Assembly: GCA_017963105.1 (NCBI GenBank)
Contig: JAGCTY010000049.1
Coordinates: 1-35,501, forward strand
Reading direction: 5' to 3'
DNA length: 35,501 nucleotides
Source: Lentisphaeria bacterium
Lineage (GTDB): Bacteria; Verrucomicrobiota; Lentisphaeria; Victivallales; UBA1829
In this document: piece by piece, positions 19,362 through 30,139 of the stretch
Layout: each line of letters begins with the position of its first letter
How positions within the stretch are numbered: position 1 is the first letter of the stretch
The notes under the pieces: generated by a model
The model's database searches: none
Seen by the model: only the letters and a program-made list of their open reading frames with translations
What the model was told of the DNA's origin: nothing
Program-made: the position numbers and the translations under genes

Positions 19362-21509
19362 TCAGGCGTGCTTCATACGGCCGAAAAGGTTGCCGTATTT
19401 CTTCAGGTTCAGCGATTCGACGAACGACGCGATCTTGGTCGTGGTGGAGCACGGGTCGATGGAGGCGTCCATGCAGTCGCCCTCCAGCGCCAGCATCGGC
19501 ATTCCGATTTCCTCGAGCTCTTCGCGCAGGAGCTTCGTGAACGGGCGGTCGGCGAGGCTGCACCGCCCGAACCCGTGCGTGTAAAGGATGCAGCCGGTGA
19601 ACTTGGCCCTGGCGGACAGGTCCTTCACGTATTTCACACGGAGCTTCGGGTCCAGGAATCCGGTGGTGAGGAGTTTCCGCGCGAGCGATTCGTAGGGATG
19701 CTTCGGGTCGAGCGGGGCCCAGCCGACGTAGTTGGTCTCCTCGAACACGATCGGGGCGTTGCAGACGGTCTCGATATAGTCGAGATGCTTGGAATCGTAG
19801 AAGGGCGGCAGATGGAGCCAGAGCAGGCGGTGGGTGTCGTCGATGGAATAACGTTGTTCCGCCCATTCCTTCTTCCGGAGCAGTTCCTCGTAGTAGGTCT
19901 TCTGGATGTCGACGAGCTCCTGCGTGCCCCACAGCTGGCTGAAGATGACGGCGTTGTAGACCGCCTCCGAACCGCGGATCAGCGGCGGCGAGGTCCAGCG
20001 CAGTTCGTTGCATTTGCGGGAATAGTCCGCCGCGAGGTTGGACAGCATGCAGGCTTCTTCCAGGCGCGCCGGGTCAAGCTTGCGGCCGAGCGCCTCCTCC
20101 ATCTGCTCCACGGACTGGCGCAGGCCGTCGGCGATCTGGCCGACCGCGTTGGTGTTCGCCAGGTTGATCGGGGTGTGCAGCGAGAAGAAGCGGTCCTCGA
20201 AGCCGTATGTACGCGCGAGGTCGGCGAAGATGCGTTCGCCCTGCTGGCACGGCTGGCTGGTGGAGACGGCGAAATCGGGAGCCTTCAGCGGCAGGCCCTC
20301 CAACATGCGCAGGAAGGAGCAGGTCTGCTGGTCGAACCCCTTGCGGGCGGCGGTATCGAGCGCCGCCTTCACGCGTTTCGTGCTGCGGCCGAAGAGCGCC
20401 GCATACGTTTCCAGCGTCAGGATGCGCGCGTCGAAGGCGTTCAGGATCTCGGTCGGGAAGAAGAGGTTGCGCCAGATGGTCGGCTTGTCCTTGTCGCCGA
20501 AGAGGAACGAGCGTTTGTTGCTTGCCACGCGCATGGCGACGGATTTCTGGCGGGTGGGCTCATACTGGACGGGGTCCGGGTCGAGCTTGCCGCGGAGCTT
20601 GCTGTATTCGAGCGCGAGGACGGCGGCGCCGAGCGCGCCCATGACGTTGTGGAATTCCGGGATGATGATCTCGCAGCCGGTGATCTCCTTCATGAAATAC
20701 GCCACGGCGTGGTTCGAGGCCACGCCGCCCTGGAAGAGGATCGGATGCGAGGGATCGTGGTGCATGAGCATCTGCCCGACGCCGTTCAGGATCGTGCGGG
20801 CCTGCGCCCGGCAGGCGCCGGCGAGCAGATCGCCCATCGGGATGCGGTTCTTGAACTTGTTGATGGAGGTGGCGGAGAGTACGGCGCAGACGGAGCTGAA
20901 TTCGGTCTTCGCGTCGTAGTTCACCTTGTCGGCCATTTCCTCGACCGGGATGCCGAGCTTGGCGGCCACACTGTCGAGGTAGCTGCCGGTGCCCGCAGCG
21001 CACACGCCGGACATCATGGACACCCACATGCCCATCTTGTGGTTGAAGACCATGCACTTGCTGTCCTGTCCGCCGCAGTCGATGATCGCGTCAACGTTCG
21101 GGTAGTAGCGTTTCGCCCCGGCGACGTGCGCGGAGACTTCGCTGACCTGGAAATCGTACGGGATGAAGCGTTTCGTGTCCTCGACGATCTGGCTGCCCGT
21201 CACGACCGTGCAGGCGATGTCCCCGGCATGGATGCCGCTGTCAATCACGCCCTTCGCGGCATCTGCGGTCGTTTCGCACAGGATGTTTCCGGCATTCAGG
21301 CCGGCCTCGGAGAAGAACGTGGCGAGGGTCTTTTTCAGCGCGCCCATGTTGCAGCGGCCGCAGGAAGTGCAGCGGCCCGTGCAGGAGAGCTGACCGGAAT
21401 CCACCGGCTTCGTGCGCTGGTAGGTCGTATGGACCACGCGCCCCTTGTCCGTGATGACGACGGCTTTGAATGTCGTGGACCCGATATCAATCCCGAGGTA
21501 GTATTTCAT
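19362..21509 (-). CDS. Fused 2-hydroxyacyl-CoA dehydratase activase (ASKHA ATPase) and HgdB-like component
   Basis: A 715-residue cytoplasmic protein with two modules. Residues 1-305 are a BadF/HgdC-type ATPase: LGIDIGSTT, DCGGQDSK (144-151), GVCAAGTGS (C170), SVCAVLSAT (C208), FQGGVASN and MGALGAA. C170 and C208 match the cysteines that bridge a [4Fe-4S] cluster at the dimer interface of HgdC. An extra C-x3-C-x2-C-x2-C group (C43, C47, C50, C53), not part of classical HgdC, sits in the first lobe. Residues about 350-715 resemble HgdB/FldB or double-cubane cluster subunits, with likely cluster cysteines C421, C583 and C650. In known systems the ATPase drives a low-potential electron into the partner. 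The substrate is unknown and no CoA-pathway genes are adjacent. The ATG at 21509 is preferred to the in-frame GTG at 21518. Confidence 0.88.
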   Translation of the reverse strand: MKYYLGIDIGSTTFKAVVITDKGRVVHTTYQRTKPVDSGQLSCTGRCTSCGRCNMGALKKTLATFFSEAGLNAGNILCETTADAAKGVIDSGIHAGDIACTVVTGSQIVEDTKRFIPYDFQVSEVSAHVAGAKRYYPNVDAIIDCGGQDSKCMVFNHKMGMWVSMMSGVCAAGTGSYLDSVAAKLGIPVEEMADKVNYDAKTEFSSVCAVLSATSINKFKNRIPMGDLLAGACRAQARTILNGVGQMLMHHDPSHPILFQGGVASNHAVAYFMKEITGCEIIIPEFHNVMGALGAAVLALEYSKLRGKLDPDPVQYEPTRQKSVAMRVASNKRSFLFGDKDKPTIWRNLFFPTEILNAFDARILTLETYAALFGRSTKRVKAALDTAARKGFDQQTCSFLRMLEGLPLKAPDFAVSTSQPCQQGERIFADLARTYGFEDRFFSLHTPINLANTNAVGQIADGLRQSVEQMEEALGRKLDPARLEEACMLSNLAADYSRKCNELRWTSPPLIRGSEAVYNAVIFSQLWGTQELVDIQKTYYEELLRKKEWAEQRYSIDDTHRLLWLHLPPFYDSKHLDYIETVCNAPIVFEETNYVGWAPLDPKHPYESLARKLLTTGFLDPKLRVKYVKDLSARAKFTGCILYTHGFGRCSLADRPFTKLLREELEEIGMPMLALEGDCMDASIDPCSTTTKIASFVESLNLKKYGNLFGRMKHA

Positions 21510-21557
21510 CGATGGCACCCAAAACAGTTTATGCGTTAGATAAAAAAATATCTATAT

Positions 21558-21585
21558 AATATACCCCTTTTTCAATCATTTTCAA
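21558..21585 (-). promoter_or_regulatory. Promoter of the activase/dehydratase gene
   Basis: Minus strand: -35 TTGAAA (21580-21585), 16-base spacer ending in GGGG, -10 TATATT (21558-21563). A second TTGAAA at 21570-21575 is too close to serve. Confidence 0.6.
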
Positions 21586-21653: not shown

Positions 21654-21683
21654 AAAAAACCCTCCGGACGTAAATCCGAAGGG
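21654..21683 (-). terminator. Terminator of the tig-clpP-clpX-eda-prfB run
   Basis: Stem CCCTTCGGA with TCCGGAGGG (arms 21675-21683 and 21660-21668; one G-U pair) and a 6-base loop, followed by six T (21654-21659) on the minus strand, 28 bases after the prfB stop. Confidence 0.88.
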
Positions 21684-27286: not shown

Positions 27287-28150
27287 TCATTTCGAACGGA
27301 GCCGCGCGAAGACGAACGACACCGCGAACATCGCGCAAGCCAGAAGCACGATCGCCGCGCCGGCGGGCACGTTCGCCCACGGCTGCGCCGAGATCAGCAG
27401 GCCGCCCGCGCAGCTGACGTAGCTGAAGGCCAGCGACAGGAAGAACAGCTGGCGCGAGTTGCGCGCGAAATTCCGCGCGGTCGCCGCCGGGACGATCAGG
27501 ACCGCCGTCACCAGCAGGACGCCCACGGCACGGACGCACAGGATCACGACCAGCGAAAGCAGCGCCGCGAAAAGGTACTGGTATACGGATACCCTGATCC
27601 GGTGCACACCGGCGATCTGTTCGTTCACGGAGATGTGGAGCATGCGGTTCCACGCGAAGAACTGGAACGCCAGGAACGCGACGAGCAATCCCGCCAGAAG
27701 CGCGATCTCGTTGTCGCCGATCGTCAGGATGTCGCCGTACAGGAACATGTTGATGCCGCGCGACGCCTCGCGGTTCCGGCTCACGATCGCGAGCCCGAAC
27801 GCCACCACGGCGGAGAAGATGATGCCGATCACCGTGTCCGTGGAAAGGCGGCTCCCGCGCCGCAGATACATGATGAGCAGCCCGATCGCGAGCGCCAGGC
27901 CGGGCATCGTGAATTCGGGCGGGAGCGACAGGATCAGGCCGAGCGCGACGCCGGCGAACGCCGAGTGTCCGATGGCGTCGGAGAAGAACGACATGCGCGA
28001 GTTCACCACCTGCACGCCGGAGAGCGCGGCGAGCGGGGCAATCAGGAGCAGCCCCAGCATGGCGCGACGCATGAATTCGGGCTCCATGCAGTCCAGCGGG
28101 AACAGCCGCGCGGCAAGGTCGGCGATCCGCAGTACGATCTCATTCAGCAT
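27287..28150 (-). CDS. znuB: Zinc-type ABC transporter permease
   Basis: A 287-residue inner-membrane protein of the ABC-3 family with about eight hydrophobic spans. Typical blocks are MSFFSDAIGHSAFAGVALG (about 67-85), DTVIGIIFS and a late VRAVGVLLVTAVLIVPAATA. It forms the membrane channel of the importer. The ATG at 28150 is chosen because GGAG lies 7 bases upstream; the start overlaps the end of the ATPase gene by 11 bases. The upstream extension of the frame is a shadow of the His-rich ATPase tail. Zinc is inferred from the His-rich partners; Mn or Fe are possible for this family. Confidence 0.9.
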   Translation of the reverse strand: MLNEIVLRIADLAARLFPLDCMEPEFMRRAMLGLLLIAPLAALSGVQVVNSRMSFFSDAIGHSAFAGVALGLILSLPPEFTMPGLALAIGLLIMYLRRGSRLSTDTVIGIIFSAVVAFGLAIVSRNREASRGINMFLYGDILTIGDNEIALLAGLLVAFLAFQFFAWNRMLHISVNEQIAGVHRIRVSVYQYLFAALLSLVVILCVRAVGVLLVTAVLIVPAATARNFARNSRQLFFLSLAFSYVSCAGGLLISAQPWANVPAGAAIVLLACAMFAVSFVFARLRSK

Positions 28151-29075
28151 GGCCGGTCTCCGTTTCATGGTCGTGGCCGTGGTCATGGCCGTGCGAATGG
28201 CCGTGGTCATGGTCGCAGGAACAGCCGCGGTCCGTGCCGTCGACATGGCAATGGTCGTGCAGATGCAGGTGTTCGTTGCGGAGCGGGCAGTTTTCGGGGC
28301 ATTCGCGCACATCCCTCGGGATGCCGTGCAGATCGGGGAGACCGAGGTGCAGTCCGAACGTCTCGGACAGCACCTGATGGGTCAGCGCCACGCGCGGTTC
28401 GCCTTCGCCGAACACCTTGTGGTTCAGGCAGATCACGTGGTCGGCGTGGGCGGTCACGGTCGCCAGGTCGTGGCTGATCATGATCTGCGTGAATCCGCGT
28501 TTTTCGCGGACGCGCCGCAGGAGTTCGCAGCAGATTTGCCCGCCCTTGAAGTCGACCCCGGAGGTCGGTTCGTCCAGGATCAGGATATCGGGCTCCTGAA
28601 GCAGCGCCTGCGCGAGCAGCACGCGCTGGATTTCGCCGCCGGAAAGCGCGCCGAACGCATGGTCGGCAAGGGCGGTGCATTCCACCTCGTCCAGGTACCG
28701 CATGATGCGTTCCACGTGGCGTTTGGAGTGCCCCAGGAAGAGCGGCATGCGCTGAAGACCGGAGAGCAGATAGTCCATGACGGTCATCGGGATGTCGCGG
28801 TCGAACACCAGCCGCTGCGGCACGAATCCGAACCGCGGCTTCCGTCCGGCTTCGTCAAGTCCGGGAAACAGCACTTTGCCGGTATGCTTGATCTGGCCGA
28901 GGACTGCAAGCGTGAGCGTGGTCTTGCCCGCGCCGTTCGGGCCGACGATGGCAGTGAACTTGCCGCGCGGGACATGCGCGCAGACGTCGTCCAGGATGCG
29001 GTTTTCGCCGAGAGTCAGGCCGACATGCTCGAACCGGACCGCATCGGCAGGTGCTGTTTCCGCGGGCGAGTTCAT
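28140..29075 (-). CDS. znuC: Zinc-type ABC transporter ATPase with a His/Cys-rich C-terminal tail
   Basis: A 311-residue ABC ATPase. It has Walker A GPNGAGKT (45-52), signature LSGGE (144-148), Walker B ILILDE (164-169) and the switch histidine H202 (SHD). The ATPase core ends near residue 250. Beyond it a tail (258-311) holds about 14 His with several Cys and Asp in HxH and DHDH patterns. Such stretches are usual in the periplasmic binding protein, much less so in the cytoplasmic ATPase, and could sense or buffer zinc inside the cell. Its ATG shares four bases (ATGA) with the stop of the binding-protein gene. Confidence 0.92.
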   Translation of the reverse strand: MNSPAETAPADAVRFEHVGLTLGENRILDDVCAHVPRGKFTAIVGPNGAGKTTLTLAVLGQIKHTGKVLFPGLDEAGRKPRFGFVPQRLVFDRDIPMTVMDYLLSGLQRMPLFLGHSKRHVERIMRYLDEVECTALADHAFGALSGGEIQRVLLAQALLQEPDILILDEPTSGVDFKGGQICCELLRRVREKRGFTQIMISHDLATVTAHADHVICLNHKVFGEGEPRVALTHQVLSETFGLHLGLPDLHGIPRDVRECPENCPLRNEHLHLHDHCHVDGTDRGCSCDHDHGHSHGHDHGHDHETETGHAE

Positions 29076-30139
29076 TCCGCAAGTGCTTTCTTCATGATTT
29101 CGAGGTTGTTTTTCATCACGTCGAAATAATATCCGGCGGGCGGATCGGCGGGACCGGACGCCATGGGGTCGATCTTCACGACGGCGGCTCCGGTCTCCTT
29201 GCCGATGAGCTTGGCAAGTTCGTCCGGGTACTGCGGCTCCGTGAAGATGACCTTCACGCCGTGCTCCTTGAATTCCTTCGTCATGGCAGTGATCTCGGCG
29301 GGCGACGGCGGCGTCTCGGGATCGGCGAAGATCGCCAGCGGCGTTTCGAATCCGCAGTCGCGCAGGAGATAGTCGAAGATGTTGTGCTGGGCGGCGACAT
29401 GCTTGTCCGCGTACGGTTCGAGCTGCGCCTTGAATTCATCGCCGAGGATCTGGAGACGTTTGTCGAGCTTTGCGGCGTTTTCGCGGAACTTGACCGCGTG
29501 GAGAGGATCGCTTTTCGCGAGCTCACCGGCGATTGTCGCGACAATCTTCCGAGCCTCGTACGGACTGGCGAAGAAATGGCCGTTCTCGCCGCCGTGATGG
29601 TGGTGGTGATGACCTTCCGCCTCGTGGTCATGGTCGTGGTCCGCGTCGTGGTCGTGGTCCGCGTCGTGGTCGTGATCCGCGTCATGCTCCTCATGTTCAT
29701 CATGATCGCCGTCCGCGTCGTGGTCCGCGTCATGGTCATGGTCGTCGCCGCCGATCACTTCGATCCCGGCGCCGGTGTCGACCACCACGATGCCCTTGTT
29801 CGCGGACAGCGCCGCCTTGCAGATATGATCGTCAAGGCCCGCGCCGTTCTTGAACAGCAGAAGCGGCTTGCGGGCGGAGGAGACCTTCATGAGGTCGTTC
29901 GCGGTCAGGACATAGTCGTGGGGGCATCCGGCGTCCGGCGGGGTCAGCAGCTGCGCTTCGATCCCGGTCCCGTCCAGGACTTCCCGGGTCAGAATCCAGA
30001 TCGGATACGTGGTCGCGGCGACGCCGTAGCCTTCCTGGGACGTGGTTTGCACCGTCGTACGGATTTTATCGGGCAGGACAAACAGCACGGCGCACAGCGC
30101 GATGAGCGCGAGCAGGAAACTGATGGTGAAGATTTTCAT
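29072..30139 (-). CDS. znuA: Zinc-binding ABC transporter solute-binding protein with long His/Asp-rich loop
   Basis: A 355-residue cluster-A-I binding protein. The N-terminus (1-23) is a signal or membrane-anchor segment without a clear lipobox. Likely metal ligands are H74 (AGCPHDY), H188 (GHFFASPYEA), H252 (AQHNIFDYL) and E301 (FTEPQYP), matching the three His plus acidic residue of ZnuA-type proteins. Between the first two ligands is a long loop (132-188) of repeated DHD, ADHDHDADHD and six consecutive His, longer than in most ZnuA proteins. The loop is thought to scavenge zinc. It is first in the znuA-znuC-znuB operon, with promoter and inverted-repeat leader upstream. Confidence 0.93.
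   Translation of the reverse strand: MKIFTISFLLALIALCAVLFVLPDKIRTTVQTTSQEGYGVAATTYPIWILTREVLDGTGIEAQLLTPPDAGCPHDYVLTANDLMKVSSARKPLLLFKNGAGLDDHICKAALSANKGIVVVDTGAGIEVIGGDDHDHDADHDADGDHDEHEEHDADHDHDADHDHDADHDHDHEAEGHHHHHHGGENGHFFASPYEARKIVATIAGELAKSDPLHAVKFRENAAKLDKRLQILGDEFKAQLEPYADKHVAAQHNIFDYLLRDCGFETPLAIFADPETPPSPAEITAMTKEFKEHGVKVIFTEPQYPDELAKLIGKETGAAVVKIDPMASGPADPPAGYYFDVMKNNLEIMKKALAE
29594..29746 (-). repeat. Coding repeat for the His/Asp loop of the zinc-binding protein
   Basis: Imperfect tandem units of 6, 12 and 18 bases, mostly alternating His (CAC/CAT) and Asp (GAC) codons with GCG (Ala), encode residues 132-182. The array stays in frame and may vary in length between strains. Confidence 0.85.

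Follow-up and report, generated by a model that had tools for sequence, protein, structure and literature searches.

The window (the whole 35,501-nucleotide stretch of DNA analysed) carries, between prfB and manA, a gene for a 715-residue protein in which an HgdC-type activase is joined to an HGD-D module. Frame, length and order of the two modules are as an earlier note, made from the sequence by itself, had read them. An in-frame GTG at 21518 is a possible alternative start. Coordinates of the gene, its modules, the cysteines discussed below and the flanking signals are collected in Table 1.

Table 1. Features of the fused gene and its upstream region, in window coordinates.
Feature	Position	Strand	Remarks
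Intrinsic-terminator-like site	21660..21683	minus	closes upstream gene prfB
Sigma-70-like promoter match (TTGAAA-16/18-TATATT/TATTAT)	21556..21585	minus	upstream of gene; consensus match only
CDS, 715 aa	19362..21509	minus	N-terminal activase (HgdC-type, ASKHA fold) fused to HGD-D module
Activase module, residues 1-305	20595..21509	minus	PF01869; structure match 4ehu Z 29.1, 1hux Z 28.6
C43-x3-C47-x2-C50-x2-C53 insert in lobe I	21351..21383	minus	invariant in 58/58 rows; low-confidence model
C170, first bridging-cluster cysteine (GVCAAGTG)	21000..21002	minus	aligned with HgdC/HadI
C208, second bridging-cluster cysteine (SSVCAV)	20886..20888	minus	aligned with HgdC/HadI
HGD-D module, residues 312-707	19389..20576	minus	Pfam and structure matches
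C397, cluster ligand	20319..20321	minus	aligned with BzdO Cys95 and equivalent HadB cysteine
C421, cluster ligand	20247..20249	minus	aligned with BzdO Cys128 and equivalent HadB cysteine
C650, cluster ligand	19560..19562	minus	aligned with BzdO Cys380 and equivalent HadB cysteine
C679 and C687 (CMDASIDPC)	19449..19475	minus	invariant in 58/58 rows; loop after last strand

The two modules and their predicted cluster ligands

Both halves of the protein are recognised by Pfam. PF01869 (BadF/BadG/BcrA/BcrD ATPase) covers residues 5–299 (E 9e-26; 91 bits against a cut-off of 31.5), and PF06050 (HGD-D) covers residues 349–700 (E 1.6e-42; 146.8 bits). The NCBIfam activase model TIGR00241 scores 114.3 bits, below its curated cut-off of 125.4, with the match split in two stretches. 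The predicted structure has a mean pLDDT of 83, and its N-terminal half adopts the ASKHA ATPase fold of the activators. For conservation we used an alignment of the query with 57 orthologues from Lentisphaerota and Kiritimatiellota (58 rows), which are 59–95% identical to the query. C170 and C208, named in the earlier note as the two cluster cysteines, are invariant (58/58) and line up with those of solved activators: on HgdC and HadI, GVC170AAGTG falls on DKCAAGTG and SSVC208AV on ISSTCTVF. Each chain thus has two cysteines at a predicted site for a bridging [4Fe-4S] cluster.

The second module, earlier described as HgdB-like, is indeed of the HGD-D family, and profile and structure comparisons sharpen its placement. 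A profile built on the C-terminal half has HadB as its best match, along the full length, with BzdO next; the structure matches are BzdO (8s02_C, Z 37.1), HadB (3o3m_C, Z 36.8) and the double-cubane protein DCCP (6eno, Z 29.6). The cluster of BzdO is held by Cys95, Cys128 and Cys380 (PMC11971306); C397, C421 and C650 occupy these positions and are predicted to bind a [4Fe-4S] cluster with an open site. Glu367 aligns with BzdO Glu65, which sits next to the water bound to iron. Judged by alignment and structural model, the module is of the catalytic kind represented by HadB and BzdO, with three cluster cysteines and a Glu, and not of the kind found in double-cubane relay subunits. C679 and C687 have no counterparts in the aligned HadB or BzdO.

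At one position the likeness to BzdO breaks down: Tyr97, which binds the thioester oxygen, is replaced by Phe399, and this Phe is invariant in the family. CoA-ester chemistry is therefore not assured, and CoA-thioester chemistry of the BzdO type appears doubtful.

Several specific assignments were considered. For class I benzoyl-CoA reductase, all of the BCR equivalogs listed score far below their cut-offs. A double-cubane protein was rejected, the distal ligands being missing: in alignment with a double-cubane-type profile the residues at Cys263 and Cys293 are non-cysteine, no cysteine lies near the first distal position (Cys36), the double-cubane model NF040772 gives 31 bits against a cut-off of 350, and structure and profile scores favour HadB/BzdO. 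Stickland-type CoA chemistry is disfavoured, as CoA-transferases of the PF01144 and PF02515 families were not found in the window's genome, a MAG that is 87% complete.

The four-cysteine motif of lobe I

The C-x3-C-x2-C-x2-C motif that the earlier note had placed at residues 43–53, inside the first ATPase lobe, lies where it was reported. In the predicted structure it occupies the loop between strand 25–32 and helix 54–69 of lobe I, and residues 36–52 of this loop have pLDDT values below 50. The idea of a second metal site had been made to depend on conservation of the four cysteines in homologues, and it survived the comparison: C43, C47, C50 and C53 are each present in 58 of 58 rows. Positions between them vary freely, except G51 (58/58) and G45 (56/58). 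Cysteines that stay invariant while the loop around them drifts argue that the motif is not due to chance. It is absent from the activase frames of nine comparison loci.

Four conserved cysteines in one loop are what a [4Fe-4S] site calls for, and a metal site is the natural reading of the motif, supported by the total conservation of its ligands. Since this is presumptively an anaerobic electron-transfer protein, a [4Fe-4S] cluster would be likelier there than zinc.

A further pair of cysteines, C145 and C152 (window 21054–21077), lies on either side of the GGQDSK phosphate loop. All 28 rows of a clade mostly from herbivore guts have this pair, and no others do; the remaining 30 rows have Val and Ala at these positions.

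Gene neighbourhood, cupin partner and distribution

The gene had been described as transcribed alone, with its own promoter and terminator. A promoter-like site does stand upstream, but the clear terminator belongs to prfB. No terminator-like site was found between the fused gene and manA, where the spacer folds no better than shuffled sequences, so lone transcription is not established in the window; in many relatives, moreover, a cupin gene follows close behind. The statement that no neighbours hint at a substrate holds for the window but not for the family, in which this cupin gene is a recurrent partner. The fused gene is carried by 44 of 61 genomes (that of the window included), and in 19 of the 44 carriers, from nine genera and three families, the cupin gene lies downstream on the same strand within about 11–110 bp. 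At three loci (L056, L070 and L086) the enzyme's stop and the cupin's start codon overlap (ATGA), and at L022/L081 enzyme and cupin share one unbroken frame of 830 residues, which represents either a natural fusion or very tight coupling.

The partner is a Cupin_2 protein similar to TM1287 (E 1.2e-21 to 1o4t). It shares the fold of the TM1287-like cupins and differs in its context: pairing of these cupins with such an enzyme is unreported in the literature searched, and here the partner is in frame with the enzyme in one genome. The link between cupin and enzyme is strong but not exclusive, because the cupin gene also occurs in genomes that lack the fused enzyme. Within the genus of the window, the closest homologue of the cupin is on a different contig; in the window's own genome it is on contig C103 (L153:3833-4252, minus), beside a frame that by eye resembles prephenate dehydrogenase. 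A few genes away from the fused gene, at 27287–30139 on the minus strand of the window, are genes that by eye encode an ABC-type metal transporter (a permease, an ATPase and a binding protein that has an extended His/Asp-rich segment).

Most of the sampled Victivallales genomes carry the family, as do some Kiritimatiellae. In the tree, the window's protein falls in the 28-row clade, drawn largely from herbivore guts, and most Kiritimatiellota rows (L050–L078) nest there among Lentisphaerota, closer than many copies from the same order; this nesting is consistent with lateral transfer or with binning errors. A sample of 247 genomes from a second phylum gave one full-length match, in genome G182, on a short MAG contig and possibly itself a binning error. 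No relatives were found on viral contigs, and matches in the plasmid collection, at 25–31% identity, cover essentially the activase half only.

The order of the two modules also occurs elsewhere: a 681–711-residue frame of the sampled second phylum has it, in a three-gene operon (L142–L144) that appears to encode an uncharacterised enzyme akin to benzoyl-CoA reductase, one subunit of which is fused. The activase–HGD-D fusion itself is therefore not unique. The operon (L143:1412-5563; also L142 and L144) has one gene for an activase, one in which an activase is joined to an HGD-D module of double-cubane-like type, and another for HGD-D. The fused protein (P0002) has the same two modules in about 700 residues, but it lacks the four-cysteine insert, its second half scores as double-cubane-like (NF040772, 205 bits), and it is encoded next to a free-standing activase and another HGD-D gene. 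BLASTP similarity between P0002 and the fusion studied here is confined to the activase half, which makes them distant kin.

Neither the two-module protein nor the lobe-I motif is reported in the literature searched, and in the paper that describes Lentisphaerota strain zth2 the gene was not found under the keywords searched. The fused protein represents a real, conserved and uncharacterised subfamily with a second putative metal site.

Assembly, mechanism and competing interpretations

The known dehydratases combine an alpha-beta heterodimer with a separate activator, and the beta cluster serves in electron transfer and storage (PMC11574389). Only one HGD-D protein is available here. The 715-residue protein is the sole PF01869 and the sole PF06050 match in the window's genome, and all 13 genomes tested have it as their only HGD-D protein, namely that of the window and twelve more, among them the complete chromosome of strain zth2 (CP071032). 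Neither a relay subunit nor a split HGD-D subunit was found elsewhere in any of the 13, so that the heterodimer of two HGD-D subunits typical of dehydratases has no counterpart. In five tested genomes of the window's genus it is also the sole PF01869 protein, and some of the other genomes hold further PF01869 proteins. With both modules complete, these counts lend good support to the earlier proposal of a self-contained, ATP-driven electron injector. As no relay subunit turned up in the tested genomes, a homo-oligomer of the fusion protein is likely; we found no example of a solved homodimer of catalytic-type HGD-D modules.

Comparison with the known systems shows what is shared and what is not. 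HadBC and its activator HadI (3o3m, 4ehu), the (R)-2-hydroxyisocaproyl-CoA dehydratase, have the same activase fold and bridging cysteines, and HadB aligns over its full length with the HGD-D module, including the three cluster cysteines and the Glu. That system uses three chains, however, where the fusion uses one and lacks a HadC-type partner, and the four-cysteine insert and C679/C687 are present only in the fusion. Among the class I BCRs BzdONPQ and MbdONPQ (8s02, 9gai), BzdO is the closest structure and shares the ligand pattern and the equivalent of Glu65 (PMC11971306), but the fusion has no double-cubane subunit, carries Phe399 for Tyr97, does not keep His131, and has an activase that is of one kind and joined in-chain. 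The DCCP:DCCP-R complex (6eno, 7yyl), with a homodimeric target and an activase dimer, is the closest model for the likely assembly, although its chains are separate, its structural score is lower, and the fusion lacks the distal-cubane ligands. Because the defining features of dehydratases and of double-cubane proteins were both looked for and not found, we place the family as a variant within the BCR I/HAD superfamily and in neither of these groups.

The explanation that best accounts for the architecture, the invariant cysteines, the type of the HGD-D module, the lack of any other HGD-D protein and the cupin linkage in relatives is that of a single-gene, homo-oligomeric member of the BCR/2-hydroxyacyl-CoA dehydratase superfamily, with activator and catalytic-type HGD-D module in one chain, performing radical chemistry that in many relatives is cupin-assisted. 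We consider this explanation probable, with some reserve. Two chains would pair through both halves: the activase halves would dimerise around one shared bridging [4Fe-4S] cluster, to which each contributes C170 and C208, and beneath this dimer the two HGD-D halves would form a homodimer, giving the expected 2:2 stoichiometry of activator to target. The activase would be reduced by a low-potential donor, probably through a metal, most likely a [4Fe-4S] cluster, bound by C43/C47/C50/C53. One electron would then be driven by ATP hydrolysis onto the HGD-D cluster (C397, C421 and C650, with the open iron site beside Glu367), where a substrate radical could be generated, to serve in dehydration or in some demanding reduction. 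With the relay subunit missing, C679 and C687 probably take its place by tuning or extending the active site, and the cupin protein may work alongside the enzyme in many relatives.

The strongest competitor is an ordinary 2-hydroxyacyl-CoA dehydratase or aryl-CoA reductase whose parts merely happen to be fused, the four cysteines forming a structural [4Fe-4S] or zinc site with no role in electron transfer. Module folds and cluster ligands matching HadB and BzdO are what it predicts, activase–HGD-D fusions recur in an unrelated operon type, and in some long activases the ATPase is accompanied by other groups of cysteines. Such an enzyme should nevertheless possess a second HGD-D subunit, which was not found; it leaves the two extra invariant cysteines (C679 and C687) unaccounted for, and the substitution of Phe for the thioester-binding Tyr97, together with the failure to find either CoA-transferase family in the 87%-complete MAG, speaks against it. 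We regard it as rather unlikely.

A bolder form of the single-gene explanation would dispense with the relay subunit altogether: a radical enzyme with a homodimer of catalytic modules and its own ATP motor, electron entry through a dedicated second cluster in the ATPase lobe, an active-site cluster of novel composition with five cysteines, and reduction of a non-CoA substrate handled with the cupin. All of these together we hold to be unlikely.

DCCPs are homodimers to which an activator supplies electrons. A DCCP-like double-cubane reductase, with C679 and C687 helping to hold an alternative distal sub-cluster, would thus suit a homodimeric, activator-fed assembly, five invariant cysteines in the HGD-D module, and the weak NF040772 match. 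With non-cysteines at two distal ligand positions, no cysteine near the first (Cys36), and scores that point to HadB/BzdO, it is improbable. That the protein activates some other enzyme, its HGD-D half being a docking or relay part, would fit the lack of an adjoining substrate pathway in the window and the recurrent cupin partner, but is very hard to reconcile with a retained catalytic Glu and all three cluster ligands, or with the poorer structural fit to relay subunits of the BzdN/HadC type.

Reductases of this superfamily use ATP to attain very low potentials, but studying them is difficult, because the activator, the relay and the catalyst come as separate proteins that are sensitive to oxygen. 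With its stoichiometry fixed, a natural version in one chain would offer a compact means of following ATP-gated electron transfer, and it could reveal whether such enzymes need a relay subunit. As the family occurs in zth2, whose genome is complete, and in the majority of the Victivallales genomes examined, an uncharacterised anaerobic reaction of gut and sediment bacteria comes within reach of testing.

Activase domains were also seen in another setting: at L145 (4328-6166, minus) a 613-residue open frame encodes an unusual fusion, in which a complete activase domain is linked to one that resembles ketopantoate reductase (ApbA and ApbA_C).
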